Assembly (NCBI RefSeq): GCF_000426625.1
Contig: NZ_KE384548.1
Location: 682,001 to 746,000, forward strand
Reading direction: 5' to 3'
Length of the DNA: 64,000 nt
DNA from: Psychrilyobacter atlanticus DSM 19335
GTDB taxonomy: Bacteria; Fusobacteriota; Fusobacteriia; Fusobacteriales; Fusobacteriaceae
The translations under genes were made by a program, and so were the position numbers. Positions 31,090 to 50,248 of the stretch are shown one piece after another (within the stretch, counting starts at the first letter, position 1; each line of letters opens with the position of its first letter). The notes under the pieces were generated by a model. That model was not told the DNA's origin. It ran no database searches and saw nothing but the letters and a program-made list of their open reading frames with translations.

Positions 31090-32397
31090 TTATTTGACTT
31101 CCTTCATGTATTCCCCTATTCTATTGTTTTTTGATCTTCGTTTTCGTTTTGAAGATGATGGTAATAAGATTTCTTCCCTATATTTAGCAATTGTTCTTCT
31201 GGAAATTTTTATTTTTTCTTTCAAAAGTAGTTTTGCTAAAGTTTCATCTGAATAGGGTTTATTTTTATCTTCTGTCATTACTGTTTTATAAATAATGTCT
31301 TTGATATAATCTCTTGTCATTTCATCAGTAGTACCATTATTATTTCTGGGTTTAAATTGCTTTGCAAAAAGATCCTTTAGAGTCATAATTCTTCCATCTA
31401 TATCTATATCCCTGTTTTTTATAGATCTTGAGACTGTTGATTGGTGCATTTCAAGAGAATCTGCTACTTCTAAAAGTGTTAAAGGTTTTAGCTCACCACC
31501 TAGAAAGAATTCTTTCTGCCTTATAATCACTTCTTCAATAACTCTTTTCAAAGTTTCTTGACGTTGTTTGATACAGCTTATTATAAACTCTGCTCTTTTT
31601 CTGCATTTTGATATATATTTTTCATATTTTTTATTCCCGCAGGATGATTCTGATTGCTCTATGAGTATTCTAGGAATAACTTGTTCATTTAACTTTATAT
31701 TTATGTTTTCACCATCTACTTTTACATATGCATCAGGAATAAGCTTCTCTCTTCTCTCTTCTATATAATACCCATTAGAAGGTATCGGATTTAAGCTCTT
31801 TATTCTTTCTATTGCTTTAATCATTTTTTTCATGTCTATCCCAACACTTTTAGCTATTTTTCGTTTGTCTCCATAAGCTAAATCCTCTAGATAGTCTTCT
31901 ATTATTATTTTTTCATATATTTCATCCTCATTTAATTGTAATAAAAGGCAACTTTTTAAATCATCTCCCGCTACTCCTATAGGATCAAAACCTCTTACTA
32001 TTTCTAAACATTTCTCAAAATCAAATTGATTATAAGGATGCCTCAACCAATGGCTAATATATCCCCTTGAATCTATATTATCAACTATGTATTCACATAT
32101 TTCTTTCATCCTTTGAGTAAGACTTAGTTCTCCTATTTGAGAGTATAGATGGTCATAAAAAGATATCTCTTTTTCGGTAACTTCTCCATAGGGATCATAC
32201 TCACTATCTTTATAACTGTTTCTTCTTCCTATTTCTCTTTTTTCTATTTTTATAAGAATATTGCTTTCCTGCTCTTTTTGTATAAATTCATTTAATTCTT
32301 TCGAATTCATTTGAAGAATTTTTAAAGAAAGCTTCATCTTTTGAGTGAGAAATAATTTTTGCGATAAACCTATTGATAAACTATTCATTAATTCCAT
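31090..32397 (-). CDS. rpoN: RNA polymerase sigma-54 factor
   Basis: 435 residues, slightly shorter than E. coli RpoN (477). Region I is Gln/Leu-rich (LSQKLFLTQKMKLSLKILQM), residues about 80-290 are the core-binding region, about 300-350 hold the promoter helix-turn-helix (LEVADSLEMHQSTVSRSIKN) and the RpoN box SRRTIAKYREE lies near residue 405. It directs core polymerase to -24/-12 promoters that need an AAA+ activator. Here it lies beside the operon whose promoter at 46497 has the -24/-12 pattern and whose activator is encoded at 46827. Confidence 0.95.
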   Translation of the reverse strand: MELMNSLSIGLSQKLFLTQKMKLSLKILQMNSKELNEFIQKEQESNILIKIEKREIGRRNSYKDSEYDPYGEVTEKEISFYDHLYSQIGELSLTQRMKEICEYIVDNIDSRGYISHWLRHPYNQFDFEKCLEIVRGFDPIGVAGDDLKSCLLLQLNEDEIYEKIIIEDYLEDLAYGDKRKIAKSVGIDMKKMIKAIERIKSLNPIPSNGYYIEERREKLIPDAYVKVDGENINIKLNEQVIPRILIEQSESSCGNKKYEKYISKCRKRAEFIISCIKQRQETLKRVIEEVIIRQKEFFLGGELKPLTLLEVADSLEMHQSTVSRSIKNRDIDIDGRIMTLKDLFAKQFKPRNNNGTTDEMTRDYIKDIIYKTVMTEDKNKPYSDETLAKLLLKEKIKISRRTIAKYREEILLPSSSKRKRRSKNNRIGEYMKEVK

Positions 32398-32461
32398 AGC
32401 TCACACCCCCAACTACATTTTAAATAAAAGGGTCCCTTTTGTAAAATTTTATTAAAAATAA

Positions 32462-32546
32462 TTAATAAAATAAAGAAACTAAAATATTATTTTAGCTTTT
32501 TTATTTCATGAATATATTTTAGAGGGTGCCATAAGACACCCTAAAT
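32462..32546 (-). terminator. Terminator region between purine operon and rpoN
   Basis: Two hairpins follow the stop codon of the proximal ridA: AGGGTG/CACCCT immediately after the gene, with a poor T-run, and a longer A/T-rich one (CTAAAAT/ATTTTAG) with T-rich flanks. Together they probably separate the long catabolic transcript from rpoN, perhaps with read-through. Confidence 0.55.
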
Positions 32547-32553
32547 TTTATGT

Positions 32554-32949
32554 CTAATCTAAGTAATTTTTTGTAAGGTATGCTGTCACTTCGATTTCTA
32601 TTTTTACATCTAAAGGTAATCTAGCTACTTCGACACAAGCTCTTGCAGGTTTATTTTTATTGAAATATTCACTGTATACTTCATTTATTGCTGCAAATTC
32701 ATTCATATCTTTAATAAAAACTCCTACCTTTACTACATCATTTAATGACGCTCCAGCTTCTTCCAGGATAGCCTTTACATTTTCTAATGATTGCCTTGTT
32801 TGTTCTTTAATATCCTGAGATACTAGTTTCATAGTTGATGGAACGAATGGAATTTGACCAGATACGAATAACATGTTCCCTGCTTTCATAGCCTGTGAGT
32901 AAGGTCCTACTGCAGCAGGTGCTTTTTCTGTAAAAATTGGTTCATTCAT
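32554..32949 (-). CDS. ridA: RidA family enamine/imine deaminase
   Basis: 131 residues, close to standard RidA (128): [20 protein letters not shown] at the N-terminus, [28 protein letters not shown] and the late [20 protein letters not shown]. The catalytic Arg (PARAC), the Tyr of GPYSQA and the Glu of the final strand are present. It is the last gene of the purine/diaminopropionate operon, 23 bases after the xanthine dehydrogenase. The likely job is to remove 2-aminoacrylate formed by the diaminopropionate ammonia-lyase of the same operon. Confidence 0.92.
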
Positions 32950-32972: not shown

Positions 32973-35528
32973 TTATTTTTTGTATGCTGTTTTCTTTAAT
33001 GGTAATTCAGTTCTAAATTCACCATCAAATTTATAGTATGCTCCTTGGACTGCTGGAGCAGTAGGGATTACTACAATCTCTCCTACACCCTTAGCTCCAT
33101 AAGCTAACTCTTCGGTATTTTTTTCTACAATTATTGATTTGATTTCTGGAATCTGGGTTGCTCTTAACAATCCTAAAGTACCAAATTTTACCTGTGGCAT
33201 ACCGTTTTCAAAAGACATTACCTCAGTGAGAGCATAACCTAACCCCATTACAACTCCGCCTTCAATCTGTCCTTCTACAGATTTAGGGTTTATAGCTTTT
33301 CCGACATCATGGGCTGCTACTACTTTTTCTACTTTCCCATTCTCATCTAATACAACTAATTGAGTTGCATACCCATAAGCTATATGACTTTTAGGATTTT
33401 CTTTATCTATTCCTATTTTATCAGTAACTCCAGAATACTCTCCGATATGATCATATCCGTTGATCTCTTTCAGTGTTTTTCCCTTGAGAGCTTTTTTCAG
33501 TTCGAATGCTGCAACTCTTACTGCTTCGCCTGTAAATACAGTTTGTCTTGATGCTGTTGTTGTTCCTGAATTAGGAGTTATATGAGTATCCGGAGTTTCT
33601 ATAATTATGTTTTTAGGATCAATTCCGGTTGTCTGGCATAATATTTGCAAGTTAACAGTTCCTACTCCCTGGCCTATACATGCTGCTGAAGTTCTTAAAT
33701 GGACTTTTCCATCTATGACAGTTAATCTACATTTTCCAATGTCAGGCAGTCCTACTCCTATTCCTGCATTTTTAAAGGCACAGGATAATCCTACATATTT
33801 ATTTTTATCAAATTCATCCTTTACAGCTTCCAATGTTTCTACTAGCCCTGTTCCTTTATCTGCAATCTGCCCGTTTGGTAATATTTGTCCAGGCCTTATT
33901 GCATTTCTATATCTAATTTCCCACGCTGAGATTCCTACTAGTTCAGCTAATTTGTTGATATTTGATTCGGTAGCAAAAACTGATTGAGTCACTCCAAATC
34001 CCCTAAATGCTCCTCCAGGAGAATTGTTGGTATAATACGCTTTCCCGTCTACTTCAATATTATGATAGTTATATGGTCCCGATGCATGAGTACACGCCCT
34101 TTGAAGAACTGGTCCTCCTAAAGATGAATAAGCCCCTGTATCAGATAAAATAGTAGCTTTCATTGCTGTTAATATCCCATTTTCATCACAAGCTGTGGTC
34201 ATTTCAATTTCCATAGCATGCCTTTTAGTGCTCACATAAATACTTTCTTGTCTAGATAAAGTTACCTGGACAGGTACCTGTAAAACATACGCTATTAACC
34301 CTGCATGATGCTGAACTGTCATATCTTCTTTACCACCAAATCCTCCACCTACTAAAGTAGAAGTTACCCTTACTTGAGATGGTTCTAGCCCTAACAATCT
34401 GCTTACTTCCCTTTGTTCGTCATATATAGACTGAGATGAAGTGTATAACTGAACTCCATCTTCTGTTGGCAGTGCTGTTGCACTTTCAGGCTCTAAATAT
34501 GCATGTTCTGTTGCAGGAGTCTTGTAAACATGGGTTATTGTGTGTTTTGATTCAGCTATTGCTTTCTCTACATTTCCTCGATTCAAAGTTTGATGAAATA
34601 ATAAATTTCCCTTTTCATGAATTTTTGGTGCATCTTCTTTTTTTGCTTCCTCTACAGTCAGTATTGGAGTTAACTCTTCATATTTTACTTTTACAGCTTT
34701 TTTAGCAGCTTCCAAAGTTTCTTTATCCTTAGCAGTGACTAGTGCTACAGCATCTCCTCTATACCTGGTTATTTCTCCAACTGGAATTAATGCATCCCAA
34801 TCTGAGATAAAAGAAAGGTGCCCTATGTTATTAAGTCCCGGAACATCTGCTGCTGTTAATACTTTTAGTACACCTTCCATTGCTTCTGCTTCACTTACAT
34901 CTATTGATATTACTCTTGCTCTAGGATATTCTGATCTTACAGCTCCTCCATAGTACATACCATCTATCCTTATATCTTCTGCATAAACTCCTTCACCTAC
35001 TGCTTTAGCCGGACCGTCTATTCTATGTGCATTTGTCCCGACCATTCCTTTACACTCTCTTTTGGGAATTACTCTGTCTGTTCTTAATATTTCTGCCGCC
35101 AGTTCAATAGCTTGTTCTATTTTTACATATCCTGTACATCTGCAGATATTACCGATCAGTGCTTTTTTTATTTCTACTTTGGTTGGGCTTAGAGTTTTTA
35201 AGAATAAAGCTGTGGCACTCATAACCATTCCTGGAATACAGAAACCACATTGAACTGCCCCTGCTTCTGTAAAAGCATATGCAAATACATCTCTTTCTCT
35301 CTGGGATAACCCTTCTAAAGTAGTTATCTTTTTCCCTTCTAATTTATCTGTCTTAAGAATACACGCTTTTATAGCTTTCCCGTCTACAAGAACCATACAT
35401 GTACCGCATGCTCCCTCTCTGCATCCATTTTTAGAAGCTTTTAAATCAAGGTCATCCCTTAAATATTCTAATAGATTTTTTACTTTGTCCGATTTATAAA
35501 CATTTCCATTTATCTCAATTTTATACAT
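32973..35528 (-). CDS. Selenium-type xanthine dehydrogenase, fused Fe-S and molybdopterin subunits
   Basis: 851 residues, the length of the selenium-dependent xanthine dehydrogenase family (TIGR03311, about 848). Residues 1-155 carry two [2Fe-2S] sites (Cys36, 41, 44, 56 and Cys94, 97, 129, 131); from about 165 on the molybdopterin domains follow, with GGGFGGKED and the catalytic Glu in GAKGVGE near the C-terminus. There is no FAD domain, so electrons leave through another protein. The selenium in this family is a labile cofactor, and no in-frame TGA is seen. It oxidises xanthine or a related purine. Neighbours on both sides are purine catabolic genes. Confidence 0.92.
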   Translation of the reverse strand: MYKIEINGNVYKSDKVKNLLEYLRDDLDLKASKNGCREGACGTCMVLVDGKAIKACILKTDKLEGKKITTLEGLSQRERDVFAYAFTEAGAVQCGFCIPGMVMSATALFLKTLSPTKVEIKKALIGNICRCTGYVKIEQAIELAAEILRTDRVIPKRECKGMVGTNAHRIDGPAKAVGEGVYAEDIRIDGMYYGGAVRSEYPRARVISIDVSEAEAMEGVLKVLTAADVPGLNNIGHLSFISDWDALIPVGEITRYRGDAVALVTAKDKETLEAAKKAVKVKYEELTPILTVEEAKKEDAPKIHEKGNLLFHQTLNRGNVEKAIAESKHTITHVYKTPATEHAYLEPESATALPTEDGVQLYTSSQSIYDEQREVSRLLGLEPSQVRVTSTLVGGGFGGKEDMTVQHHAGLIAYVLQVPVQVTLSRQESIYVSTKRHAMEIEMTTACDENGILTAMKATILSDTGAYSSLGGPVLQRACTHASGPYNYHNIEVDGKAYYTNNSPGGAFRGFGVTQSVFATESNINKLAELVGISAWEIRYRNAIRPGQILPNGQIADKGTGLVETLEAVKDEFDKNKYVGLSCAFKNAGIGVGLPDIGKCRLTVIDGKVHLRTSAACIGQGVGTVNLQILCQTTGIDPKNIIIETPDTHITPNSGTTTASRQTVFTGEAVRVAAFELKKALKGKTLKEINGYDHIGEYSGVTDKIGIDKENPKSHIAYGYATQLVVLDENGKVEKVVAAHDVGKAINPKSVEGQIEGGVVMGLGYALTEVMSFENGMPQVKFGTLGLLRATQIPEIKSIIVEKNTEELAYGAKGVGEIVVIPTAPAVQGAYYKFDGEFRTELPLKKTAYKK

Positions 35529-35549: not shown

Positions 35550-36923
35550 CTAAAATCGATTCCTTTTTATAAATTTTCCCCGTCCTTTTTTTCCTAAAAA
35601 TTTTCCGTTTTTTACTATTATTTCCCCATTAGAAATAGTCATAGTTGGGTATCCGACCAGATCTATTCCTTCATAAGGTGTATAATCAACGTTTTCATGT
35701 AAATTTTTATGTTCTATAGTCATCTTTTTTTTAGGGTCTATAATCATAAAATCTGCATCTGCTCCTAAAATAATTTCTCCTTTTTTAGGATATAATCCAA
35801 ATAATTTAGCTGGTGTTGTACTTACAACATCGACAAATTTAGTTATGCTTATTCTCTTTTTAGTTACTCCCTCAGAATACATAAGAGCTATTCTAGTTTC
35901 TACCCCTGGTGCTCCATTTGGACACTTGGTAAAGTCTTTACTTCCAAGCTCTTTTTTTAATTTAAAATCAAAAGGACAATGGTCTGTTGCAACAGTCTGA
36001 ATATACCCTTCAGCTATTCCTTTCCAAAGCCTTTTATTATTATTTTTTTCCCTGAGAGGAGGACTCATTATATATTTAAGGCCTCTATATTTATCCTCAA
36101 GATACTTATCTTCATTCAAAAATAAGTATTGAGGACAAGTTTCAGCATAAATATTTCGTCCCTCAGCTCTTGCTTTTTTTATCACATCTAAACCATCACC
36201 AGAAGATAAATGAACTATATATAAAGGAGCCTCTCCTGCTTCTTTAGACATTTTTATCATTCTTTCTATAGCTTCAACCTCTGCTTTTACAGGTCTTGAT
36301 TTAGCATGATATATTGGTTCAACTTTCCCGTCTTCTATATACTTTTTTCTAAGTTCTTGTATTTCATCATGAGCTTCAGCATGGACAGTTGTCATTGCTC
36401 CCAAAGAACTCAGCTTTTCCATAATAACTTTCATATTTTTATCCTGTAATTTATAATCATATGTCATATAACCCTTAAAAGAAGTTATTCCATCCTCTAC
36501 CATTGAGTCCATTTCATCTAATATTTCATCATTAATATGCTGGATTACCCCGTGAAAACTATAATCAATTACAGCATCTGTTTCTGCATCTGCCTTATAT
36601 TTATCCAATTGGTGATGAAGTGTACACCCCTTAGGTCCAAACCCCATATGATCTATTATTGTAGTGGTCCCTCCACAAGCAGCAGCCACAGTTCCTGTAT
36701 AAAAATCATCTTTTGCAACTGCTATTCCTATATCTAAATTAAAGTGTGTATGAACATCTATTCCGCCTGGCATAATGTATTGTCCATGAAGATCTACTGC
36801 TTGCCCACTATCTATAGATAAATTTTTGCCAATTTTGGATATCACTCCATTTTCTACAAGGATATCTTCTTTAAATACTTTACCACTTGTTACTATAGTT
36901 CCGTTTTTCAGTAGAAGTTTCAT
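35550..36923 (-). CDS. hydA: Dihydropyrimidinase / hydantoinase
   Basis: 457 residues. The start is the ATG at 36923, nine bases after AGGAGG; an in-frame TTG at 36944 would place the ribosome site inside the gene. It is a cyclic amidohydrolase with Zn ligands HTHF, the carbamylated lysine in SFKGYM, His in VHAEAHD, HLSSGDG and Asp in TDHCPF. It opens dihydropyrimidine or hydantoin rings. It lies 21 bases from xanthine dehydrogenase, matching HyuA/HydA of the E. coli yge cluster, which acts in anaerobic purine breakdown. Confidence 0.93.
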   Translation of the reverse strand: MKLLLKNGTIVTSGKVFKEDILVENGVISKIGKNLSIDSGQAVDLHGQYIMPGGIDVHTHFNLDIGIAVAKDDFYTGTVAAACGGTTTIIDHMGFGPKGCTLHHQLDKYKADAETDAVIDYSFHGVIQHINDEILDEMDSMVEDGITSFKGYMTYDYKLQDKNMKVIMEKLSSLGAMTTVHAEAHDEIQELRKKYIEDGKVEPIYHAKSRPVKAEVEAIERMIKMSKEAGEAPLYIVHLSSGDGLDVIKKARAEGRNIYAETCPQYLFLNEDKYLEDKYRGLKYIMSPPLREKNNNKRLWKGIAEGYIQTVATDHCPFDFKLKKELGSKDFTKCPNGAPGVETRIALMYSEGVTKKRISITKFVDVVSTTPAKLFGLYPKKGEIILGADADFMIIDPKKKMTIEHKNLHENVDYTPYEGIDLVGYPTMTISNGEIIVKNGKFLGKKGRGKFIKRNRF

Positions 36924-36933
36924 TGTTAACCTC

Positions 36934-38034
36934 CTATCTGGCAATAGTCATAGCATCTTTAGGACACTTAGATACACATACTCCACATCCAAAACATACA
37001 TTAGGATCAATTACAGCCATCTTATCTTCATTTATTTTAATTGCATGGTATGGACAGAGGTTTGCACAAATACTACAGCCGATACATTTCTCTGCTTTTA
37101 CTACTGGTGGTGTAGTTACATAGTTATGAGCTGTTCTATTTTCTAAATGTTTCCCTACCATTCCTCTTATATCATCTAAACTTTCATACCCATGGTCATC
37201 TAACCATTTTTCAGTCTCTCTAACTATTCTTCCAAATGCCTTAGGACCTTCAATGATTGCTTGAGTACATACTTGTACTGCTGTTGCTCCAGCCATTATG
37301 AATTCAATTACATCTTCACCTTTAGTTATTCCTCCAACTGCGAATACAGGAATATCAACTGCTGCAGATAATTCATATACTACTCTCATTGCAATTGGCT
37401 TTATAGCTGCTCCTGACATCCATCCATATCCATTCTTAGACCCCATATGAGGTTTTCCAGTTTCCAAATCGATGGAAAGACATGGTCCTACAGAGTTTAT
37501 AGCTACCAATCCGTCTGCTCCATTTGCTTCTAATTGTCTTGCTACTTCACCTAAATTTTCTACACCTGGAGATACTTTCATGAATACCGGCTTCGCAGAT
37601 AATTCCTTAGCTGCTCTTAATGTGTTTAACATTGGAGTTAGATCTCTTCCAACATAATGACTTGATATTTCGTATCCGTCAGCAAACTCGTCTACCATGG
37701 GTATTAATTTTCTAATATCAGCTTCTACATACCCCAATCCAATGATTAATGGCTCATTTGCTGCTTTACATCTTGCATATTCATTTTTTACCCAATGTTC
37801 TGGTGATTCTTCAGACCATAATTCTGTATTTAAAAAATGTTTCCCTTTAAAATCATGCATACATGGTTTTGGGATCTCTGCTGCTACAGATGATATAGTT
37901 TTTGCTACTACTCCTGCTGCTCCATTTTTTACTGCATTCACGCAAGTCTCAGCATCTTTTGATGGTGGTCCTGCTGCTACGATTACCGGATTTTCATACT
38001 CTAGTCCTGCGAAATTTACTTTTATATTTGCCAT
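36934..38034 (-). CDS. PreA-like dihydropyrimidine/dihydroorotate dehydrogenase with ferredoxin domain
   Basis: 366 residues: an FMN-binding TIM barrel (about 1-300; NPVIVAAGPPSKD, KPVFMKVSPGV, VFAVGGITKGEDVIEFIMAG, VQVCTQAI) and a C-terminal 2x[4Fe-4S] ferredoxin (CIGCSICANLCPYHAIKI and CFGCGVCVSKCPKDAM). It resembles PreA, the catalytic half of NAD-dependent dihydropyrimidine dehydrogenase, but is about 45 residues shorter, and no PreT partner gene is in the window. It likely passes electrons to or from a ring substrate that the neighbouring hydantoinase then hydrolyses. Confidence 0.88.
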   Translation of the reverse strand: MANIKVNFAGLEYENPVIVAAGPPSKDAETCVNAVKNGAAGVVAKTISSVAAEIPKPCMHDFKGKHFLNTELWSEESPEHWVKNEYARCKAANEPLIIGLGYVEADIRKLIPMVDEFADGYEISSHYVGRDLTPMLNTLRAAKELSAKPVFMKVSPGVENLGEVARQLEANGADGLVAINSVGPCLSIDLETGKPHMGSKNGYGWMSGAAIKPIAMRVVYELSAAVDIPVFAVGGITKGEDVIEFIMAGATAVQVCTQAIIEGPKAFGRIVRETEKWLDDHGYESLDDIRGMVGKHLENRTAHNYVTTPPVVKAEKCIGCSICANLCPYHAIKINEDKMAVIDPNVCFGCGVCVSKCPKDAMTIAR

Positions 38035-38131: not shown

Positions 38132-39499
38132 TTAATTAGAACAATTTAATTTTTCAACAAGAATGTTGGCTTTTAAAGCCACTTTTTTCTCATCTATATT
38201 AACTAATTTTCCATTTTCAACTACAACATTCCCATTAACAATGGTATAATCAACGCTCCCTTTTACTCCAACAGTTCCAAGCATAGCCTTATAATCATAT
38301 TGGGTTCCGACTAACTCAATTCTATTCGAGTCTATCATAAATAGATCCGCAGCTTTCCCCACTTTTAAAGACCCTAAATCATGTTGCCTTCCTAAAATTT
38401 CAGCACCACCATTAGTTGCTAATTTTAAAATTTCATATCCACCGATAGATTCATTACTATATTTCAATCTTTGAAGCAGGTATGCTACCCTAATCTCTTC
38501 AAGGATATTCGAGCCATCATTACTTGCACTACCATCAACAGCTAAACCTACAGGAATTTCCATTTTCTGCATCTCAGAAATTCTTGCAATTCCTGAAGAG
38601 AGTTTCATATTTGAAACTGGACAATGAGCAACTCCAGTTTTCGTTTTAGCTAATAGTTCCAGTTCCTCATCGTTAAAATGAATCCCATGAGCAAACCAAA
38701 CATCATCTCCAATCCATCCAAGACTTTTCATATACTCAAGTGGTCTCATCCCAAATTTTTCAATTGTAAAGTTTTCTTCATCTATAGTTTCACAAAGATG
38801 GGTGTGTAATCTAACATTGTATTTTCTCGCAAGTTCAGCAGATTTCTTCATAAGTTCCCCTGTAACACTAAATGGTGAACATGGAGCCAAAACCATTTGT
38901 CTCATAGAGTATGGTTCTGAATCGTGGTATTCTTTTATAAGTCTTTCAGAGTCATTTAAAATTTCTTCAACAGATTGAACAACGGCATCAGGTGGTAAAC
39001 CGCCATCTTTTTTACTTAATGACATACTTCCTCTAGAACAGTGCATTCTAATCCCTAATTCCGTTGCAGCTTCAAACTGTACATCGATAAGATTATTGGC
39101 AACATTATTAGGAAATACATAGTGGTGATCAAAACAAGTCGTACAACCTGTTTTTAAAAGCTCTCCCATCCCAACTAGCGAACTAAATCTGATTGTATCT
39201 GCATCTAAATTTTTCCAAATTTCATAGAGATGTAATAGCCAAGGGAAAAGTTCCATATTTTGTACCTCTGGAAGGTTTCTGGTAAAAATTTGATATAAAT
39301 GGTGGTGTGTATTTATTAATCCCGGATATATGATCATTCCAGTAGCATCAATTGTTTTTTCAGCTTCATAAACTTTATTACTTATATCCTTAATAACTCC
39401 ACTTTCAATGAATATATTCATATTTTCATAAACTTGATCATTCGAATCACAACTAATTATGGCTTTTACATTTTTTATAAATAAAGTTTTATTTTTCAT
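38132..39499 (-). CDS. 8-oxoguanine deaminase-like amidohydrolase
   Basis: 455 residues of the COG0402 deaminase superfamily. Metal ligands are HHHLYQ (residues about 66-71), HLCE with the catalytic Glu, His in AHGIHF, and Asp in VDGSASND. The phrase LINTHHHLYQIFTRNLPEVQ near residue 65 is typical of the 8-oxoguanine/hydroxydechloroatrazine branch rather than of guanine deaminase proper. It removes an exocyclic amino group from a purine. It lies beside a nucleobase permease in the operon. Guanine or a related purine could also be the substrate. Confidence 0.85.
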   Translation of the reverse strand: MKNKTLFIKNVKAIISCDSNDQVYENMNIFIESGVIKDISNKVYEAEKTIDATGMIIYPGLINTHHHLYQIFTRNLPEVQNMELFPWLLHLYEIWKNLDADTIRFSSLVGMGELLKTGCTTCFDHHYVFPNNVANNLIDVQFEAATELGIRMHCSRGSMSLSKKDGGLPPDAVVQSVEEILNDSERLIKEYHDSEPYSMRQMVLAPCSPFSVTGELMKKSAELARKYNVRLHTHLCETIDEENFTIEKFGMRPLEYMKSLGWIGDDVWFAHGIHFNDEELELLAKTKTGVAHCPVSNMKLSSGIARISEMQKMEIPVGLAVDGSASNDGSNILEEIRVAYLLQRLKYSNESIGGYEILKLATNGGAEILGRQHDLGSLKVGKAADLFMIDSNRIELVGTQYDYKAMLGTVGVKGSVDYTIVNGNVVVENGKLVNIDEKKVALKANILVEKLNCSN

Positions 39500-39533: not shown

Positions 39534-40862
39534 CTAAATATTTTCTTGTATGACTTTTTTCTTGCTATTAAAACTATCTATTAACCTGTATAATTCTTGA
39601 AGTATTAAAGCGATAATAACTCCTGATATAAGGGATGATTTACCTATCAATGTTTGGATTGTTGGTGAAAATTTTAAAAACATTGTTGGATTATAAGTAA
39701 TTCCAATACTAATTGCAATCGATATTCCAGCTATTAATTTTGAATATTCATTATCACCTACTCTGTTTAAAAGACCCATCCCAGAGATAGTAATCATTCC
39801 AAAAATTACAAGAGTTCCGCCTCCTATTACTGAATTTGGTATAGATATTAAGCAGGATGCTATTTTAGGAGATATACTAGTGACTAGTACCATTAATGAT
39901 GCTAAAACAAATATAACCTTTTGGGTTTTTTTATTTATCGAAATAATTGCTGCATTTTGTGTAAGTCCGGCCATTGGTATAGATCCAAATAAAGACGATA
40001 TAACAGAGCCTACTCCCATTGCTATAGTACTATTTGCAATTTCTTCACCTTTAAGCGGTCTTCCATATGCACCAAATGTTGTTACTGTTCCACACCCGAG
40101 TAAAGAAATAATAGAAATAGCATAAGCTATTGTAAATGTAATTATTATTCCTGTATCAAACTCAATTCCATAAGCCATTGGTTTTGGAATTGCAAGCCAT
40201 CCAGCTTCAGCAATACTTGAAAAATCAACCATCCCTAAAGGAATTGCCACTATATAACCGACTATCATTCCGATTACAATAGCCGCATTTTTTATCATAC
40301 CTCTACCAATTTTATTTAAAATAGCTATTATGAAAACTACTAATAATCCAACAAATATATTTTTAGGATCCCCATAGTTTTCAGGTTTTATCCCAGATGC
40401 AAAATTCTTTACTGCTGATGGGTAAAGGCCTATCCCCATACATATAACTAATACTCCTGATATAAGTGGTGTAAATATTTTTTTTATTCTATCAACATAA
40501 AACCCCATAAAAACTCCAATTATTGAAGCAACCAACAAACTACCAAATAAAACTGGTAATCCTTGATCCTTTGCAACTGCTACAGTTAATCCTAAAAATA
40601 CATAACTCATTCCCATCATCATAGGAAGACCGGATCCTAATTTGTATTTTTTGAATAAAGGTAGTGGAAATAACTGAATAAAAGTTGCTATTGCCGATAC
40701 AAAAAGTGCTGATTGAATAAGAGTTATTCGTTGCTCAATCGAGGCACCAATTGCCCCTGCTATTAAAATTGGAGGTACAATTGTCCCTACAAACATTGCT
40801 AACAAATGCTGAAAACTAAGTGGTAATGCTTCTCCTATTAATAATTTATTGTTATCGCTCAT
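39534..40862 (-). CDS. NCS2 family nucleobase permease
   Basis: 442 residues with 12-14 hydrophobic segments. NCS2 landmarks: QHLLAMFVGTIVPP at the start, SGLPMMMGMSYVFLG, ISGVLVICMGIGLYP, TTFGAYGRPLKGEE (the loop near the substrate site), GSIPMAGLTQNAAIISI and the conserved FGMITISGMGLL. Members import xanthine, urate or uracil with protons or sodium. Its place between the two purine amidohydrolases points to xanthine, urate or guanine. Confidence 0.9.
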   Translation of the reverse strand: MSDNNKLLIGEALPLSFQHLLAMFVGTIVPPILIAGAIGASIEQRITLIQSALFVSAIATFIQLFPLPLFKKYKLGSGLPMMMGMSYVFLGLTVAVAKDQGLPVLFGSLLVASIIGVFMGFYVDRIKKIFTPLISGVLVICMGIGLYPSAVKNFASGIKPENYGDPKNIFVGLLVVFIIAILNKIGRGMIKNAAIVIGMIVGYIVAIPLGMVDFSSIAEAGWLAIPKPMAYGIEFDTGIIITFTIAYAISIISLLGCGTVTTFGAYGRPLKGEEIANSTIAMGVGSVISSLFGSIPMAGLTQNAAIISINKKTQKVIFVLASLMVLVTSISPKIASCLISIPNSVIGGGTLVIFGMITISGMGLLNRVGDNEYSKLIAGISIAISIGITYNPTMFLKFSPTIQTLIGKSSLISGVIIALILQELYRLIDSFNSKKKVIQENI

Positions 40863-40935: not shown

Positions 40936-42273
40936 TTATTTTAATTGCATTTTATTCCACATTTTTTTTGCATGTTCTCTTGATCTTTCAAATATTTCAT
41001 TTTCATTTATTCCTACTAATTTTCTATCTTTCATTATAATTTTTCCATCTATGATGGTGGTATTCACACTTCTACCCATCAGCCCAAATAATATATGACT
41101 GCTATAATTTGTTTCATTCATAGGAGTTAATGGGTTATAGTCAGCTATTATTATGTCTGCCATAGCTCCTTTCTTTAACACTCCTATATTTCCATCAAAA
41201 TACTTAGCTACAATCTTTCTGTTATTTTCAAACAACATCTGAGGTGTTTCTCCCCAAGCTACAGAAGGGTTTGATTTTACATGTTTATGTATTATATTAG
41301 CGACTTTCATAGACTCAAACATATCATTTGTATAACCATCGGTTCCAAGTCCTACATTAATCCCTTTTTCTAATAATTCTAAAGCTGGGGAGCAGCCCAC
41401 TGCATTTCCCATATTTGATTCAGGATTATGAACTACCTGAGTTCCATTATTTTTTAAGATATTCATTTCATTGTCATCTACGTGGATACAATGAACTGCT
41501 ATTGTCTTTTCTCCTAAAATTCCATATTCATCAAGTCTCTCTACGACTCTCTTGTTGTATTTAGTTAATGAATCTTCTAAATCATCTATAGCTTCCGCTG
41601 TATGAACGTGATAACCGGCATCTAGGCCTTCCATAGATTTTACACACTTGTGTAAAGATTCACTTGATAGAGTGAAAGAAGCATGCATCCCAAACATTCC
41701 CTTAATCATATTTTGGTTTTTTGTGTTGTAGTATTTAATAAAATCTGTATTCTCTTTAATTCCCTCCTCTAATATATCAATACCATCTCTGTCTGAAACT
41801 TCATAACAAAGGCAGGTTCTTATTCCAATCTCTTTAGCGGCATCTGCAATGGTGAATAAACTGTCTTTTGCTGCCATTGGACTTGCATGGTGATCAAATA
41901 TTGTTGTTACTCCATTTTTTATGCTTTCTATATATGTCGTAAGAGCACTGTACTTTACATCTTCTAATTTTAAATTTTTATCCACTTTCCACCACATATT
42001 TTCTAAAATATCTACAAAGTTTTTTGGAGCTGGACCTGTAGAAGCCATACCTCTTGCAAAAGCACTATATATATGATGATGAGTATTGATCATTCCCGGC
42101 ATTATCAATTGACCTTTTGCATCAATAAATTCTGCATCCGGATATTTTTCTTTCATTGTTTGAGTTTCACCTGTTTCTATTACTTCATTCCCTTCTACCA
42201 CAACAGTTCCGTTGTGATAGAAGGGATTCATTTCTTCTTGTGTTATCAATCTTCCATTTCCAATTAAAAACAT
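40936..42273 (-). CDS. ssnA: SsnA-type aminohydrolase
   Basis: 445 residues, the size of SsnA (TIGR03314, the selenium-metabolism-linked amidohydrolase). It starts with MFLIGNGRLITQ and has INTHHHIYSAFARG (metal His pair), TTIFDHHASP, HVHTAEA, HCIHVDD and GTDGYTNDM with the metal Asp. In E. coli ssnA lies in the yge cluster, now known to break down urate and related purines anaerobically; its exact substrate is not firmly known. It overlaps nothing and is 11 bases from the D-aminoacylase-like gene. Confidence 0.92.
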   Translation of the reverse strand: MFLIGNGRLITQEEMNPFYHNGTVVVEGNEVIETGETQTMKEKYPDAEFIDAKGQLIMPGMINTHHHIYSAFARGMASTGPAPKNFVDILENMWWKVDKNLKLEDVKYSALTTYIESIKNGVTTIFDHHASPMAAKDSLFTIADAAKEIGIRTCLCYEVSDRDGIDILEEGIKENTDFIKYYNTKNQNMIKGMFGMHASFTLSSESLHKCVKSMEGLDAGYHVHTAEAIDDLEDSLTKYNKRVVERLDEYGILGEKTIAVHCIHVDDNEMNILKNNGTQVVHNPESNMGNAVGCSPALELLEKGINVGLGTDGYTNDMFESMKVANIIHKHVKSNPSVAWGETPQMLFENNRKIVAKYFDGNIGVLKKGAMADIIIADYNPLTPMNETNYSSHILFGLMGRSVNTTIIDGKIIMKDRKLVGINENEIFERSREHAKKMWNKMQLK

Positions 42274-42284: not shown

Positions 42285-43880
42285 TTAGTTTCTTTTAACT
42301 ACCTTCCCTGCAAGGATCTTATTGTAAACACCTTCATCTATTACGTGATGTCCATTAATAAAAACATTATCTATTCCCACAGGAAATTGAACAGGGTCTA
42401 TAAATGTTCCTTTATCAATAACTGTTTCCATATCTATAATAAGAACATCAGCATGTTTTCCAACTTCTAAACTGCCTCTTCCTTTAATCCCGATAGCTTC
42501 TGCAGCTTTTTTAGTCATCTTATTGATAGCCTGCTCTATAGTAAGTACTTTCTTCTCTCTTACATATCTTCCAAGTATTTTTGGGAAAGAACCATATGCT
42601 CTTGGGTGAGGTTTCCCTTTAGCCATTAATCCATCAGTACAAACATTATGTTCCGGTCTTTTCATGAATTTTATTATGTGCTCTTCTTTTCCATAAAAAT
42701 CTACCATTCCAACTGCATTCTCTTCATCCCTTAAAAGATCAAAAGTTGCATCCAATGGATCTTTCCCTTTAAATTTTCCTAATTCTTCTAAACTCATTCC
42801 TACTACTTCCTGATTTTTATCAGTTTTAACAGATGTTACAAATATTTGATCAATTCCAGCAAAATCCACAAAGTTATCCCAGCCTGGAATCCCTTTTTCT
42901 ATATCAGCTTTCATTTTTTCCCTATCAGATTTACTTTTCAACCTTTTTATTAATTCATCTGTTCCCCCATTATGTGCCCAGGGAGGTAAAATAACTCCAA
43001 GCATAGTGCTTCCTGCTGCATATGGGTATTGGTCAAACGATACTTTTATTCCGGTTTTTTTAACTTCTTCCAACAACTCAATAACTTCATCGATGTATTT
43101 CCAGTTTTGCTTCCCACATACTTTAAAATGAGAAAAATGAACTTTTACCCCCGATTCTTTTCCAATTCTTATAATCTCTTTCATAGAATTTAATATGGTG
43201 TCGGCTTCACTCCTTTGATGGACTACAAATACTCCATCATATTCAGCTACTACTTTACACATCTCTATAACTTCTTTTGTCTCGGAATAAGCACACGGCA
43301 TATAGATGAGTCCAGTAGAAAGACCATAGGCTCCTGCTTCCATCTCTCTTCTTGTTATTTCACACATCCTTTCTATCTGTTTATCTGTAGCTGCTTTCCC
43401 AGCCAACCCCATAGCTTCCATTCTTATATTCCCGTGGGGGACTAAATACGTTTCATTTAAACCCACGCCTTTTTTAGCCATCATATTAAGATAATTTTCT
43501 GTTGTTTCATATTCCCAGTCTATATCATCTGAATCACCATCAAGACCAGCCAGATTTTTTCTCCAAGGACTGATATATTCAATAGGGAGTGGAGCCATAG
43601 ATATTCCATCCTGGCCCAGCACCTCTGTTGTTATTCCTTGTCTAATCTTTACTTCATTGTAAGGATTGAGGAGCATCACTAAATCTGAGTGACTATGAGT
43701 ATCAATAAATCCCGGAGCAACTACACGGCCCTTGGCATCCACTATTTTTATTCCATCAATATGAATATTTTCACCTATTGCATGTATTTTCCCGTCTTTT
43801 ATATGGAGATCTCCTATGAAAGGTTTTGCCAGTGTTCCATCAACTATATTTCCATTTTTTATTAGAATATCCATTTTCAC
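42285..43880 (-). CDS. D-aminoacylase / N-acyl-D-amino-acid deacylase family protein
   Basis: 531 residues of the amidohydrolase superfamily: DTHSHSDLV near residue 63, a QGITTEVLGQDGIS segment, VHQRSEADT, HFSHFK-like (VKVHFSHFK), and the late NVCTDGLM Asp. Classical D-aminoacylases have Cys in the GNCGFS position, which binds zinc; here it is GQDGIS with Asp, so metal binding may differ. The family cleaves N-acyl-D-amino acids or related ring/urea compounds. In this operon a purine-derived N-carbamoyl or formimino intermediate is also possible. Confidence 0.85.
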   Translation of the reverse strand: MKMDILIKNGNIVDGTLAKPFIGDLHIKDGKIHAIGENIHIDGIKIVDAKGRVVAPGFIDTHSHSDLVMLLNPYNEVKIRQGITTEVLGQDGISMAPLPIEYISPWRKNLAGLDGDSDDIDWEYETTENYLNMMAKKGVGLNETYLVPHGNIRMEAMGLAGKAATDKQIERMCEITRREMEAGAYGLSTGLIYMPCAYSETKEVIEMCKVVAEYDGVFVVHQRSEADTILNSMKEIIRIGKESGVKVHFSHFKVCGKQNWKYIDEVIELLEEVKKTGIKVSFDQYPYAAGSTMLGVILPPWAHNGGTDELIKRLKSKSDREKMKADIEKGIPGWDNFVDFAGIDQIFVTSVKTDKNQEVVGMSLEELGKFKGKDPLDATFDLLRDEENAVGMVDFYGKEEHIIKFMKRPEHNVCTDGLMAKGKPHPRAYGSFPKILGRYVREKKVLTIEQAINKMTKKAAEAIGIKGRGSLEVGKHADVLIIDMETVIDKGTFIDPVQFPVGIDNVFINGHHVIDEGVYNKILAGKVVKRN

Positions 43881-43892: not shown

Positions 43893-45083
43893 TTATTTGT
43901 TATAAACTGATTTTAAAATCCCATAATATCCTTTTGCTCCCAAGCAAAGTTGCTCTATTTCAATATGTTCGTCAATTGTATGAGCTAAATTTTCTTTTGA
44001 TGGTCCAAATCCTATAGTTTTGATTCCTGCTTCACCTGCATAATGAGAACCATTAGTACAGAATGAATATTGAGTAATTTCAGAATTAATTCCTGCCTCT
44101 TTTAATCCTTTATGTGCCGCCTGTACAAACTCATCTTCTTCAGAGTAAAGCCAACCTGGGAAGAACCTTTCTCCTTCGATATGGTTTCCTGTATAACACA
44201 TTTCTTTACCTATTGCATAGGATACTTTTGCTTTCAATTGGGGATCTGCTGCCATCATTTCTTCTAATAATTTTTCTATTGGAGCAAGAACTGATTCTTT
44301 TGTTTCACCAACAAGAAGCCTTCTATCAAAAGTTGCTCTACAGTGTTCAGGGACTACAGATGCTCCTGGATATGGTGACGATTTAATATCAGTTAAACAA
44401 AGAATTCCTTTTCCCAATTCTGGATGCTCAGTGGGCACAAGTTTTTCTATTCTTTCTATTATTCCGGCCATTTTAACTACAGAGTTAATTCCTTTATGCG
44501 GGTTAGCTGAATGTGCAGGTTTTCCAAATACTTCTACTACAATTTCTCCTCTACCTCTTTGACCTATTTTAAGGTTAAGCTCTGAAGATTCTCCAATTAC
44601 TACATAATCAGGTTTGATATTTTTAGAAATTTCTCTAGCTGCAATCCCTTCAAATATTTCTTCATGTACTACACCTGCTACATAAATTTCTCCAGCAAAA
44701 TCTTTTTTTATATCTTCAGCAAAATAAGATGCAGCAGCAATCATTGCAGATACCTGTCCTTTCATATCTGAAGTTCCTCTCCCATAAATCTTACCGTCAA
44801 CAATTTCTCCTCCAAATGGAGCATATTTCCATACTGAATCATCCGTTACCGGGACAGTATCAATATGACCATCGAATAATATTGCTTTTCCTGGTTTATT
44901 TCCCTTAATTCTTCCTATGATATTTCCATATCTATCTATCTGAACATCATCAAATCCAAATTCATCTAACATTGCCTTTTTTATTGCTTCTACTACCTTC
45001 TCCTCTTCTCCAGAAACAGATGGATTTCTAATTAACTCCTGACATAATGCAATTAACCTCTCTTCTCTAGTTTGATTTAACAT
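43893..45083 (-). CDS. ygeY: YgeY-type M20 hydrolase
   Basis: 396 residues, the length of the selenium-metabolism-linked hydrolase YgeY (TIGR03526). M20 metal sites: LFDGHIDTVPV, GRGTSDMKGQ, GVVHEEIFEG with the catalytic Glu, the dimer-domain GKPAHSANPHKG and a late HTIDEHI. In the E. coli urate cluster YgeY works with YgeX and YgeW on the way to 2,3-diaminopropionate. It follows ygeX by 71 bases. Confidence 0.93.
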   Translation of the reverse strand: MLNQTREERLIALCQELIRNPSVSGEEEKVVEAIKKAMLDEFGFDDVQIDRYGNIIGRIKGNKPGKAILFDGHIDTVPVTDDSVWKYAPFGGEIVDGKIYGRGTSDMKGQVSAMIAAASYFAEDIKKDFAGEIYVAGVVHEEIFEGIAAREISKNIKPDYVVIGESSELNLKIGQRGRGEIVVEVFGKPAHSANPHKGINSVVKMAGIIERIEKLVPTEHPELGKGILCLTDIKSSPYPGASVVPEHCRATFDRRLLVGETKESVLAPIEKLLEEMMAADPQLKAKVSYAIGKEMCYTGNHIEGERFFPGWLYSEEDEFVQAAHKGLKEAGINSEITQYSFCTNGSHYAGEAGIKTIGFGPSKENLAHTIDEHIEIEQLCLGAKGYYGILKSVYNK

Positions 45084-45154: not shown

Positions 45155-46360
45155 TTATTTTGTATGAGCTCCATGCCATACTATCTTTTTGTATACTTCA
45201 GGATCTGTATCTCCCTCAGTGGAAAATAATAATACTTTTGAATTCTCATCTAACTTTAAATCTTCTTTCATTTGAGCATATTCAGGGTTAGTCATTACTT
45301 CAAATAATAATCCCGCTGTAACTGCTCCTGATTCTCCTGAGACTACTTGGTCATCTCCCTTAATAGGGCACCCTAATATTCTCATCCCATTTGCAGCTAC
45401 CCAGTCCGGACAAGATACAAATGCTGCCGAATGATTCTTTAATACTTCCCAACCTATTGTGTTTGGCTCACCACAAGCAAGACCAGCCATAATTGTCTGC
45501 ATATCTCCACCAACATATTTCATTTCTCCTGCCTTTGCTGATTTATATAAACAATCTGCTAAGTTTGATTCCACTATTACAGTTGTCGGACAGTCATCTC
45601 CGTATATTGAAGCAAAAACTCCCTGCACTGCACCTGCTAATGACCCTACTCCTGCCTGTAAAAAGATATGAGTAGGTTTTTCTATCTTCTTTTCTTTTAA
45701 CTGCTCTATTGATTCTAAGGCCATTGTTCCGTATCCCTGCATAATCCATGCCGGGATCTCTTCATATCCCTCCCACGCTGTATCCTGAATAACTACCCCA
45801 TTATTTTTATTTGCGTAATCTGTTGCAATTCTTACTGCATCGTCATAGTTCACTTCTGTGATGCTTGCCTCAGCACCTTCTGCTCTTATATTTTCAAGTC
45901 TTGTTATAGAAGATCCTTTTGGCATATAAACTACTGATTTCTGATTTAATTTATTAGCAGTCCAAGCTACTCCTCTACCGTGGTTTCCATCAGTTGCTGT
46001 AGCAAATGTAATATCTCCTAATTCTTTTTTTACATCTTCTGAAATTAGTTCTTTATATCCCAATTCAGAAATATCACGACCTAATTTAGAAGCAAGGTAT
46101 CTTCCCATTGCAAATGACCCACCTAATACTTTAAATGCATTTAGCCCAAATCTATATGATTCATCTTTTAGATAAACTCCATTTAATCCAATATGGTTAG
46201 CCAGGTTACCTAAGTCAGCTAATGGAGTTACTGTATATTGATCAAAACTTTCATGAAAACTCTTTGCTTTTCCTACTTCTTTTTCACTTAAAAATTCAAT
46301 ACATTCTTTATAGTTGGTTCTCTTGATATTATTTTTAGTCCATTTTATATTTTTTTCCAT
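45155..46360 (-). CDS. ygeX: 2,3-Diaminopropionate ammonia-lyase
   Basis: 401 residues (E. coli YgeX: 398). A PLP fold-II enzyme with the Schiff-base Lys in LNAFKVLGGSFAMGR, the DGNHGRGVAW strand, HIFLQAGVGSLAG and the phosphate loop GESGAVTAG. It converts 2,3-diaminopropionate to pyruvate and two ammonia through 2-aminoacrylate. It is the first gene of the long catabolic operon and lies 137 bases from a sigma-54 promoter. Confidence 0.95.
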   Translation of the reverse strand: MEKNIKWTKNNIKRTNYKECIEFLSEKEVGKAKSFHESFDQYTVTPLADLGNLANHIGLNGVYLKDESYRFGLNAFKVLGGSFAMGRYLASKLGRDISELGYKELISEDVKKELGDITFATATDGNHGRGVAWTANKLNQKSVVYMPKGSSITRLENIRAEGAEASITEVNYDDAVRIATDYANKNNGVVIQDTAWEGYEEIPAWIMQGYGTMALESIEQLKEKKIEKPTHIFLQAGVGSLAGAVQGVFASIYGDDCPTTVIVESNLADCLYKSAKAGEMKYVGGDMQTIMAGLACGEPNTIGWEVLKNHSAAFVSCPDWVAANGMRILGCPIKGDDQVVSGESGAVTAGLLFEVMTNPEYAQMKEDLKLDENSKVLLFSTEGDTDPEVYKKIVWHGAHTK

Positions 46361-46496: not shown

Positions 46497-46515
46497 AGCA
46501 AATTTTATGCCAAGT
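46497..46515 (-). promoter_or_regulatory. Sigma-54 (-24/-12) promoter of the ygeX operon
   Basis: On the minus strand TTGGCATAAAATTTGCTT: GG and GC are separated by exactly ten bases, as in the consensus TGGCAC-N5-TTGCA. The distance to the ygeX ATG is about 137 bases. Three repeated operator-like sites lie 140-270 bases upstream, and RpoN and an AAA+ activator are encoded near. Confidence 0.8.
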
Positions 46516-46652
46516 GTTTTTCTTTTAATAAAATTAAAAGCATATTTTAAAAAGTTGAACCCTAAGTTTTTCGGCTATTTCCTCTTCTACTCATTATATT
46601 TACTCTTATTTTGTTGTTAAAATACTATTTAAAACTGATATAAAAAACGAAA

Positions 46653-46668
46653 TTATCAAAATGAGAAT
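46653..46668 (-). promoter_or_regulatory. Activator site 1 (upstream activating sequence)
   Basis: TTATCAAAATGAGAAT on the plus strand, an imperfect inverted repeat TTATCA-N3-TGAGAA. An identical 16-base copy begins 22 bases away, two helical turns, as expected for activator dimers side by side. Confidence 0.65.
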
Positions 46669-46674
46669 CGATTA

Positions 46675-46690
46675 TTATCAAAATGAGAAT
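46675..46690 (-). promoter_or_regulatory. Activator site 2
   Basis: Second exact copy of TTATCAAAATGAGAAT, 160-178 bases upstream of the sigma-54 promoter. Confidence 0.65.
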
Positions 46691-46750
46691 GCATTTTATT
46701 TAACCTTTTATTGACTTTTAAAAATATATATAGTGATTTTCATCTCAAAG

Positions 46751-46765
46751 TTATCATTTTGATAA
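46751..46765 (-). promoter_or_regulatory. Activator site 3 (perfect palindrome)
   Basis: TTATCATTTTGATAA, a perfect 6-3-6 inverted repeat and the ideal form of sites 1 and 2, about 240 bases upstream of the promoter. The spacers between the sites are AT-rich and could bend. Confidence 0.65.
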
Positions 46766-46788: not shown

Positions 46789-46828
46789 AAAAAAAGGTTA
46801 GTACAGATTTAACTGTACTAACCTTTTT
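46789..46828 (-). terminator. Terminator of the activator gene
   Basis: AAAAAAGGTTAGTACAG, a six-base loop and CTGTACTAACCTTTTT; a strong stem directly at the end of the activator gene that isolates it from the ygeX control region. Confidence 0.9.
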
Positions 46829-48578
46829 AAATATTATATTTTTCAACTTTCCTATATAATGTTGCTATTCCTATCCCTAATTCTTTTGCAGCTTCTTTTT
46901 TCCCACTTGTATTATTTCCATATTTATTTATTGCATTATCTATTAAAATCTTTTCTGCATCAGCTATAGTTAAAATACCTTCTAAAATATTTACATCAGA
47001 TTTTTCTTCTGAAATTAAATTGTCAGGAAGTAAGTCTTTTGTTATAATACCACTTTCATCAGATAAATTTATCATAAATTCTACTACATTTTCTAATTCC
47101 CTGACATTTCCAGGCCACTCATAAGACATTAATATTTTTTTAGTTTCAATGTCTATGGTATGAACATACTTATTTAAAACTTTATTATATTTTTTCATCA
47201 GCTGCTCTATTATTAAAAGTATGTCTTTTCCTCTGCTCTTTAGATTTGGAATTTCAATAGGAATTACATTTAATCGATAATAAAGATCTTCTCTAAATTT
47301 TTTCTTTTCAATCCTCTCTTTGAGATCTATATTTGTAGCTGCTAAAACCCTTATATCTAAATCCATTAATTTATTAGATCCTATTCTTACTAATTTTCTT
47401 TCTTGCAGGACTCTCAGAAGTTTTGCCTGTAAATAAAGAGGCATATCTCCTATTTCATCTAAAAATATTACCCCTTTATTCGCTAATTCAAATTTTCCCA
47501 TTCTCCCATTAGAACTAGCCCCTGAAAAAGCTCCTTTTATGTAACCGAATAATTCACTTTCAAGAAGAGAATCTGGTATCGCTGCACAATTTATGGCTAT
47601 AAAAGGTTTATCCTTTCTATCAGAGTGAGCATGGATAGCTCTAGCTACTAATTCTTTTCCCGTTCCACTTTCTCCGGTTATTAATACAGTAGATTTAGTT
47701 GGAGCTATTTTTTTTATCTTTCCTTTCAGCCTGAGCATCGGGTAAGATTCCCCTATTATAGCTTCTATCCCTAAAGCTCTCTCCGCTGATAATTGCTGAA
47801 ATTCATCATTTAATTTTTTAATACTATCAAATATAAAGACCTGATATGTTTCTTTTTTTAGGCCATCCGTTTTAAACTTTTTTCCTACAATAATATAGCT
47901 CTTTTTACTTGCAGTTATAGTTACTTCATATGTCTCTTTCCCAAATAAAAATTCATCCTTATTTTCTATATTTATCTTTTTATTCAATGAATTAGGGGAT
48001 AACTCTAATTCTTTCATGGCAGAGTTATTTAAGTTGACCACCTTACTATTTTCATCTAATACGATTACACCTTTATCTATAACACTCAATATCTCATAGA
48101 ACAGTTTTGCCCTTTCCTTTCTAAATAAATTATCATTTTGTTCATTTATTTTTATAGAAATAAATTCACTTATTTGTTTTATAAACTTAAGATGTGAGTT
48201 TAAATTTTCTAGAACTTTTTCCTTTTGATAATTTGTAGAACATACTAAGCCTATTACTCCTATTATCTCACTATTATAAAATATTGGAGTTGATATTTCC
48301 AGCGTTTCTGGACACCTATCTTTTTCTGGGCATGTTATACACAATTTATCTTTTCCCGGCTCCCTTATTATATGAGGTTCTCCTGTTTTTAATACATCTT
48401 TATAAACTGATCCTTTGGCTGTCACTCCAACACTTTTTTTAAAAATTCCTGTTCCTGCTATTCTTATCATATCTTTATCAATTATCTCTACATCTACCTT
48501 CATTGCTGAAGAAATTATAGCAGCGTATTGTTTTACATGTTTTTCTATCTGAATTAACTCTGTTTTATTTTCTATCAT
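46827..48578 (-). CDS. Sigma-54-dependent activator (YgeV/UacR-like role)
   Basis: 583 residues. Residues about 1-150 are a GAF-like sensor with a cysteine group (KLCITCPEKDRCPE) that could hold a metal or sense redox; about 160-260 resemble a PAS domain (GVIVLDENSKVVNLNNSAM); about 283-510 are an AAA+ domain with Walker A GESGTGKE, GAFSGA (the sigma-54 contact loop, usually GAFTGA) and Walker B FLDEIGDM; the C-terminus is a Fis-type helix-turn-helix (KKEAAKELGIGIATLYRKV). It lies directly upstream of the sigma-54 promoter and three palindromic sites, so it very likely activates the purine operon. Its inducer may be a purine, by analogy to E. coli YgeV. Confidence 0.9.
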   Translation of the reverse strand: MIENKTELIQIEKHVKQYAAIISSAMKVDVEIIDKDMIRIAGTGIFKKSVGVTAKGSVYKDVLKTGEPHIIREPGKDKLCITCPEKDRCPETLEISTPIFYNSEIIGVIGLVCSTNYQKEKVLENLNSHLKFIKQISEFISIKINEQNDNLFRKERAKLFYEILSVIDKGVIVLDENSKVVNLNNSAMKELELSPNSLNKKINIENKDEFLFGKETYEVTITASKKSYIIVGKKFKTDGLKKETYQVFIFDSIKKLNDEFQQLSAERALGIEAIIGESYPMLRLKGKIKKIAPTKSTVLITGESGTGKELVARAIHAHSDRKDKPFIAINCAAIPDSLLESELFGYIKGAFSGASSNGRMGKFELANKGVIFLDEIGDMPLYLQAKLLRVLQERKLVRIGSNKLMDLDIRVLAATNIDLKERIEKKKFREDLYYRLNVIPIEIPNLKSRGKDILLIIEQLMKKYNKVLNKYVHTIDIETKKILMSYEWPGNVRELENVVEFMINLSDESGIITKDLLPDNLISEEKSDVNILEGILTIADAEKILIDNAINKYGNNTSGKKEAAKELGIGIATLYRKVEKYNI

Positions 48579-50220: not shown

Positions 50221-50248
50221 TTAAAAGTTTTATATAAACAAAAAAATA

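Follow-up and report, generated by a model that had tools for sequence, protein, structure and literature searches.

A predicted DioR-type sigma-54 control region upstream of a purine/uric-acid operon with an embedded rpoN in Psychrilyobacter atlanticus

The purine/uric-acid operon of Psychrilyobacter atlanticus DSM 19335 is very probably (roughly 90%) governed by a DioR-type sigma-54 regulon control region, in which an activator bound to three palindromes drives a −24/−12 promoter. The region was analyzed within a window of 64,000 nucleotides (C3:682001-746000) of the 3.54-Mb genome, which consists of three contigs, and computation established which elements it has, how rare and how conserved they are, how its three sites are laid out and that the palindrome is linked with the recognition helix. 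According to the proposed mechanism, the neighboring AAA+ activator would receive a purine-related or redox signal and bind three TTATCA-N3-TGATAA palindromes as dimers, and the three dimers would assemble one AAA+ hexamer, as is suggested by the presence of three palindromes to seat them and by the precedent of NorR. The hexamer would loop to sigma-54 RNA polymerase at the promoter 140-250 bp away and use ATP to open it, such that transcription would begin near the predicted +1 (46487) and ygeX and the downstream reductive, selenium-dependent uric-acid/purine genes would be switched on. The sigma-54 used would be that of the operon itself rather than the chromosomal copy.

Promoter, palindromes and genes of the locus

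The promoter TTGGCATAAAATTTGCT, read from 46513 down to 46497 on the minus strand, is a GG-N10-GC element that fits TTGGCAY-N5-TTGCW and faces ygeX, the start codon of which is at 46360, and the exact −24/−12 spacing claimed in an initial annotation of this DNA was confirmed. The pattern TTGGCAYN5TTGCW has exactly two matches in the 3.54-Mb genome and its reversed-pattern control has 0, while the two intact rpoN genes indicate that a functional sigma-54 is probably available. That this element is a sigma-54 promoter of the purine operon, as the initial annotation proposed, is supported by its conservation before ygeX/ssnA and by the way in which the palindrome tracks the recognition helix of the activator. 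Matches resembling sigma-70 promoters in the AT-rich intergenic DNA numbered 12, against 5.4 expected, on both strands. The presence of a riboswitch or another known type of RNA in the cluster was rejected, given that 29-52 kb yielded no Rfam match and the ygeX leader folds no better than shuffles (z −0.48).

Three predicted activator sites lie upstream of the promoter (Table 1). The direct repeat TTATCAAAATGAGAAT occurs at 46653-46668 and 46675-46690, and these identical 16-base copies spaced 22 bp apart, like the perfect palindrome TTATCATTTTGATAA at 46751-46765, are as first described; both TTATCAAAATGAGAA copies depart from a 6-3-6 palindrome by one base (TGAGAA instead of TGATAA). The genome contains five mismatch-free matches to TTATCANNNTGAKAA, of which three are those described here and the other two, at C3:654198 and C3:833643, lie inside ORFs and were rejected as regulatory sites. 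In the form TTATCA-N3-TGAKAA, the three sites are the sole copies that the genome has between genes. If the window is taken by itself, the palindrome with one mismatch is not rare (3 found, 0.99 expected), and its significance therefore comes from clustering and conservation. A chance origin of promoter and palindromes was rejected on the grounds of their rarity in the genome, their conservation and the helix association.

The gene for the activator ends beside these sites, as had been stated, with its stop codon 61 bp from the distal palindrome. The protein has the architecture of a bacterial enhancer-binding protein (bEBP), with an AAA+ domain (PF00158) that carries the Walker A motif GESGTGKE and a GAFTGA-type loop, GAFSGA, a variant also present in Clostridiales activators (PMC6615313), and with a C-terminal Fis-type HTH (PF02954; LGIGIATLYRK) whose linked upstream sites track its helix. 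There is a hint that the N-terminal sensor is GAF-like, and the predicted structure, which is poor (mean pLDDT 53), served solely as a hint. In this domain, the motif Cys80-x2-Cys83-x5-Cys89 (window 48312-48341) is found in all 61 aligned DioR/CdsR-type activators and a fourth cysteine, Cys113, in 40 of the 61, and the three-cysteine motif is absent in a Brevibacillus relative (L111); it is a candidate metal or redox sensor.

Downstream of the promoter the gene order is ygeX, ygeY, UacY-like, ssnA, NCS2, 8-oxoguanine-deaminase-family, UacX-like, D-hydantoinase, XdhD, ridA, rpoN, MoCF and ridA. By family membership, XdhD, UacX, SsnA, HyuA, UacY, YgeY and YgeX are all encoded in this one gene run, and the same seven genes make up the C. 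difficile-type reductive uric-acid cluster (PMC12507026). Judged from its genes, the operon is thus predicted to encode the selenium-type reductive uric-acid/purine pathway, and the position of moaA beside the activator gene would suit a pathway with a molybdenum enzyme. Among named plasmids, the closest matches of the ygeX-ygeY region are from Cetobacterium somerae (72.6% identity).

Further genes were observed elsewhere in the window. A short ORF near moaA (49907-50260), which matches just part of the SBP_bac_11 solute-binding domain, is possibly the remnant of a gene for a molybdate-binding protein. A plus-strand cluster at 51090-60479, adjoined by a gene for a GntR/FCD regulator (50299-50937), encodes an NhaC-type antiporter, an amidohydrolase, an Asp/Glu/hydantoin racemase, DUF5058 and M20 peptidases, and is perhaps a hydantoin or ureido-acid utilization operon. 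Two ORFs, a very long one of 3791 aa and then one of 1167 aa, occupy 9540-20915.

Table 1. Coordinates of the control region, the operon and adjoining features in the window
Feature	Position	Strand	Remarks
Second RidA-like gene	29630..29977	-	PF01042; then terminator-like hairpin 29597-29625
Molybdopterin-binding MoCF_biosynth protein	30051..31067	-	PF00994
rpoN (sigma-54), operon-embedded	31090..32397	-	PF04552, PF04963, PF00309; RpoN box SRRTIAKYRE
Sigma-70-type promoter of rpoN, TTTACA-N17-TARAAT	32417..32445	-	Conserved in four genomes
Hairpin between ridA and rpoN	32523..32542	-	In four genomes; without T-run on coding strand
RidA/TdcF-like deaminase	32554..32949	-	PF01042, TIGR00004
XdhD, selenium-dependent xanthine dehydrogenase	32973..35528	-	TIGR03311 1363.6 bits
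HyuA / D-hydantoinase	35550..36944	-	TIGR02033 586 bits
UacX-like DHO_dh flavoprotein with Fe-S domain	36934..38034	-	PF01180 + Fer4
Aminohydrolase, 8-oxoguanine deaminase family	38132..39499	-	NF006055 over cut-off
Purine permease (NCS2)	39534..40862	-	PF00860
ssnA	40936..42273	-	TIGR03314 over cut-off
UacY-like amidohydrolase (D-aminoacylase type)	42285..43880	-	Amidohydro_3
ygeY	43893..45083	-	NF009555 over cut-off
ygeX/dpaL, diaminopropionate ammonia-lyase	45155..46360	-	First gene of operon; TIGR03528 651.8 bits
-24/-12 sigma-54 promoter TTGGCATAAAATTTGCT	46497..46513	-	Exact consensus; position conserved in orthologues
Proximal activator site TTATCAAAATGAGAA (predicted)	46653..46667	.	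About -166 to -180
Middle activator site TTATCAAAATGAGAA (predicted)	46675..46689	.	About -188 to -202
Distal activator site TTATCATTTTGATAA (predicted)	46751..46765	.	About -264 to -278
Intrinsic terminator of activator gene	46791..46828	-	16-pair stem; 0.0 expected in shuffles
Sigma-54 activator (bEBP), DioR-like	46827..48578	-	PF00158 239.7 bits, AAA_lid_14, HTH_8
moaA	48585..49547	-	Immediately upstream of activator gene, 6-bp gap; TIGR02666 over cut-off

Conservation of the layout and its link to the recognition helix

Conservation was assessed in activator orthologues drawn from two sets of genomes, 61 of the same family and a sample of 391 belonging to the class of a Clostridium relative. 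The palindrome and a −24/−12 promoter precede ygeX or ssnA in the same-family loci with a DioR-like activator and, more broadly, in most loci of Fusobacteriaceae and Clostridia that encode an orthologue of the activator. In several genera and gene orders this module is kept whether the activator gene has the same, the opposite or a divergent orientation. The same palindrome is also found in sampled Clostridia in which the helix is GI/VATLYRK (L266-L276), several times before ygeX, ssnA-like or other purine-type genes. A lack of conservation, which the initial annotation had named as evidence against its reading, was therefore not encountered.

Most of these promoters have three sites. Among 28 loci that have a recognizable promoter and at least one near-exact site, 21 share (with at most 2 mismatches) an arrangement in which two proximal sites are spaced by 17-22 bp and a third, distal site lies upstream of them, at 52-82 bp in 19 of the 21 and at 130 bp in two closely similar loci. 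The distance to the promoter varies (the pair is at −170/−151 in L273 and at −169/−150 in L274), and hence it is the layout, and not the absolute position, that is conserved. If three sites were placed at random in 200 bp, the tight form of this layout (55-77, 18-22) would be expected in about 1.6% of loci, the loci being non-independent. The ssnA promoters of one genus of Fusobacteriaceae (L230-L233) have the close pair alone, together with overlapping weak matches, and in three further loci a single site is accompanied by a weak match at most. CdsR-type paralogues mostly have three sites too, packed at about 21 and 17 bp. From the conserved layout it seems that activators of this family may generally assemble their hexamers on three DNA sites, as is known of NorR.

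The palindrome varies with the helix predicted to read it. Of 60 loci, 30 encode an [IV]ATLYRK helix, and 24 of these have the exact TTATCA form, as against 0 of the 30 whose helix is different, an association that ignores shared ancestry and has few clades behind it. None of the ten loci with an IGLTTLYRK helix has the TTATCA palindrome and seven of them have TTTTCA-N3-TGAAAA instead, located, where read, before a CdsB/CyuA-like gene (identified by sequence recognition and not by a family search). These pairings point to the adjacent activator as the probable binder of the palindromes, and IATLYRK-TTATCA and LTTLYRK-TTTTCA provide a ready specificity hypothesis. Further pairs were seen in the same activator family, with GISKTTLYRK near TTCCCA-N3-TGGGAA, GIGRATLFRK near GTATCA-N3-TGATAC and ISRATLYRK near ATCTCA-N3-TGAGAT (L286, L292, L280, L284, L287), hinting at a wider specificity code.

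These results bear on two other explanations of the control region. One is that a sigma-70 promoter drives the operon while the palindromes are targets of a repressor or of a regulator of the Crp/Fnr type and the −24/−12 match is decorative. Sigma-70-like hexamers are indeed present in the region, the product of the gene at 25952-26599 has a cNMP-binding domain of the Crp/Fnr type, and an AT-rich 6-3-6 palindrome is a common kind of operator, but the promoter sequence is conserved in distant relatives, the palindromes are at a typical enhancer distance, and their tracking of the activator helix runs counter to either a repressor or a Crp/Fnr-type protein, making this explanation highly improbable. 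The other accepts the activator but has no single hexamer on three sites, with the close pair as the enhancer and the distal site either serving the activator gene or being accessory. It is unlikely, since the distal site is retained in 21 loci, in some of them with a divergent activator gene, although retention of the close pair alone in L230-L233 would fit it, as would the fact that the distal site here is the one nearest the activator gene.

Sigma-54 supply and the second sigma-54 set

The rpoN gene noted at the outset as part of the same cluster was verified there, 14 kb downstream of the control region in the same gene run. All three of its domains (AID, core-binding and DNA-binding) are retained, and in four genomes (this one, G007, G001 and G011) the gene is flanked by ridA and the MoCF gene, with extra sequence between rpoN and the MoCF gene in G001 and G011. 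The operon copies form their own clade (support 100/99) and the other copy falls in a separate clade (100/100), the two full rpoN genes of the genome being about 27-30% identical. The gap upstream of the operon rpoN contains no −24/−12 match and no palindrome, and sigma-54 autoregulation was rejected, as there is a conserved sigma-70-type promoter in place of a sigma-54 element. The basal supply of sigma-54 would probably come from this promoter, with more provided by read-through once the operon is active. That transcripts read through into rpoN is a guess, and between ridA and rpoN there is a conserved hairpin; its stem is longer in the most distant of the four genomes, and it is possibly a processing or attenuation site ahead of rpoN.

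A second set of rpoN, activator and promoter was observed on another replicon (C2:2155200-2162300; locus L061, 5230-12259). Its rpoN (C2:2161092) overlaps the gene for its GAFTGA activator, which has a PAS-like N-terminus, and the other consensus promoter of the genome, TTGGCACGATTTTTGCT, directly follows the activator gene and precedes galactonate-dehydratase-like, BCCT transporter and galactarate/altronate-dehydratase-like genes. In total, the genome encodes two sigma-54 proteins and two GAFTGA-type activators and has two consensus promoters, all clustered at two loci. The initial impression that the whole regulon is encoded in one place holds for the purine activator, since its motif has no further copy between genes and just one other consensus promoter exists; with the second triad, the purine system is one of two in the genome. 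A scan of genome contigs for activators returned mostly unrelated AAA+ activators. The two remaining full-length activator-like proteins of the genome, at C2:290445 and C2:985466 (L062, L063), were not accepted as alternative partners. Neither has the GAFTGA loop, and activator-like AAA+ matches occur also in relatives without a detected rpoN, so they are probably not sigma-54 activators.

It is conceivable, if on balance doubtful, that these are two mutually insulated, self-contained sigma-54 systems, each with its own sigma factor, activator and promoter and each traveling as a cassette with one catabolic operon. If so, sigma-54 has shrunk from a global factor to a private component of an operon. 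In G002, which belongs to the same genus, the second rpoN copy is the only one and the purine activator lacks an orthologue, as expected if sigma-54 sets come and go as units. Against this stands G006 (98% complete), where a fragment of the purine activator gene lies at the end of a contig and no rpoN was detected. Most other genomes of the family have one rpoN, which adjoins a related activator in some lineages and is far away in others.

Whether the operon uses its own sigma-54 is a separate matter, as the chromosomal rpoN (C2:2161092) might serve the promoter equally well or instead, leaving the operon rpoN redundant or decaying. This is a serious possibility, though a somewhat doubtful one. 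The two consensus promoters, TTGGCATAAAATTTGCT and TTGGCACGATTTTTGCT, are alike and RRTIxKYRE boxes are kept in both sigma proteins, but the operon rpoN is intact in all three domains, holds the same gene position in four genomes and belongs to a well-supported clade of its own, and no chromosomal copy was found in G001, a genome just 76% complete.

Relation to known sigma-54 systems

The principle of this control is already known, in that the Clostridiales counterpart is the predicted DioR regulon, where sigma-54 control of dpaL, ssnA, pbuX and related genes has been predicted, with the function listed as unknown (PMC6615313, Nie et al. 2019), and DioR has been termed uncharacterized (PMC11448449). 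In C. difficile, the −24/−12 promoter of dpaL2 was assigned to DioR2, and expression was 0.3-fold in a sigL mutant (PMC7438776). Like DioR, the activator described here is a one-component sigma-54 activator with a Fis-type HTH that lies beside targets of the ygeX/dpaL, ssnA, pbuX and tdcF type, which are linked to it, with −24/−12 promoters and several upstream sites 100-250 bp away (PMC6615313, PMC7438776). An orthologue with a similar gene order is found in a MAG (L110) of Desulfotomaculum, one of the genera in which DioR was described. Judged from its target genes and mode of working, the locus is very probably a member of the DioR system. The differences are that the host belongs to the Fusobacteriaceae and not the Clostridiales, that rpoN lies inside the target operon, and that there are two rpoN genes versus the single sigL reported for each Clostridiales genome (PMC6615313). 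The locus supplies a testable model of a control circuit for anaerobic uric-acid breakdown, a process said recently to be poorly understood in its regulation in gut bacteria (PMC12507026).

The CdsR-cdsB system of C. difficile is similar in having two inverted repeats about 21 bp apart (−179/−190 and −200/−211), in a region required for cdsB expression, and SigL-linked activation (PMC5767170), and differs in its target gene and half-site. The paralogous activators beside TTTTCA-N3-TGAAAA sites resemble it in preceding a CdsB/CyuA-like gene. NorR-norVW of E. coli likewise has a GAF-AAA+-HTH activator and three enhancer sites, which scaffold NorR oligomers (PMC2941729). Unlike the system described here, NorR has an NO-sensing iron center and no private sigma factor. 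Its half-site is GTCA-N3-TGAC.

As far as the literature was searched, what is new is the occurrence in Fusobacteriaceae, the conservation of the three-site layout across phyla, the pairing of helix and half-site, and an operon-embedded private rpoN in a genome with two triads. Of these, the private sigma-54 stands out as the most unusual. Specialized sigma-54 paralogues are also found in the multiple-rpoN genomes of Cereibacter sphaeroides (PMC11999139), Ralstonia (PMC4371752) and Bradyrhizobium (PMC13207237), but these Proteobacteria have larger regulons, whereas each copy here lies in or beside a single catabolic operon with its own activator, and two such one-operon triads in one genome would show a global sigma factor in the course of becoming a private one.
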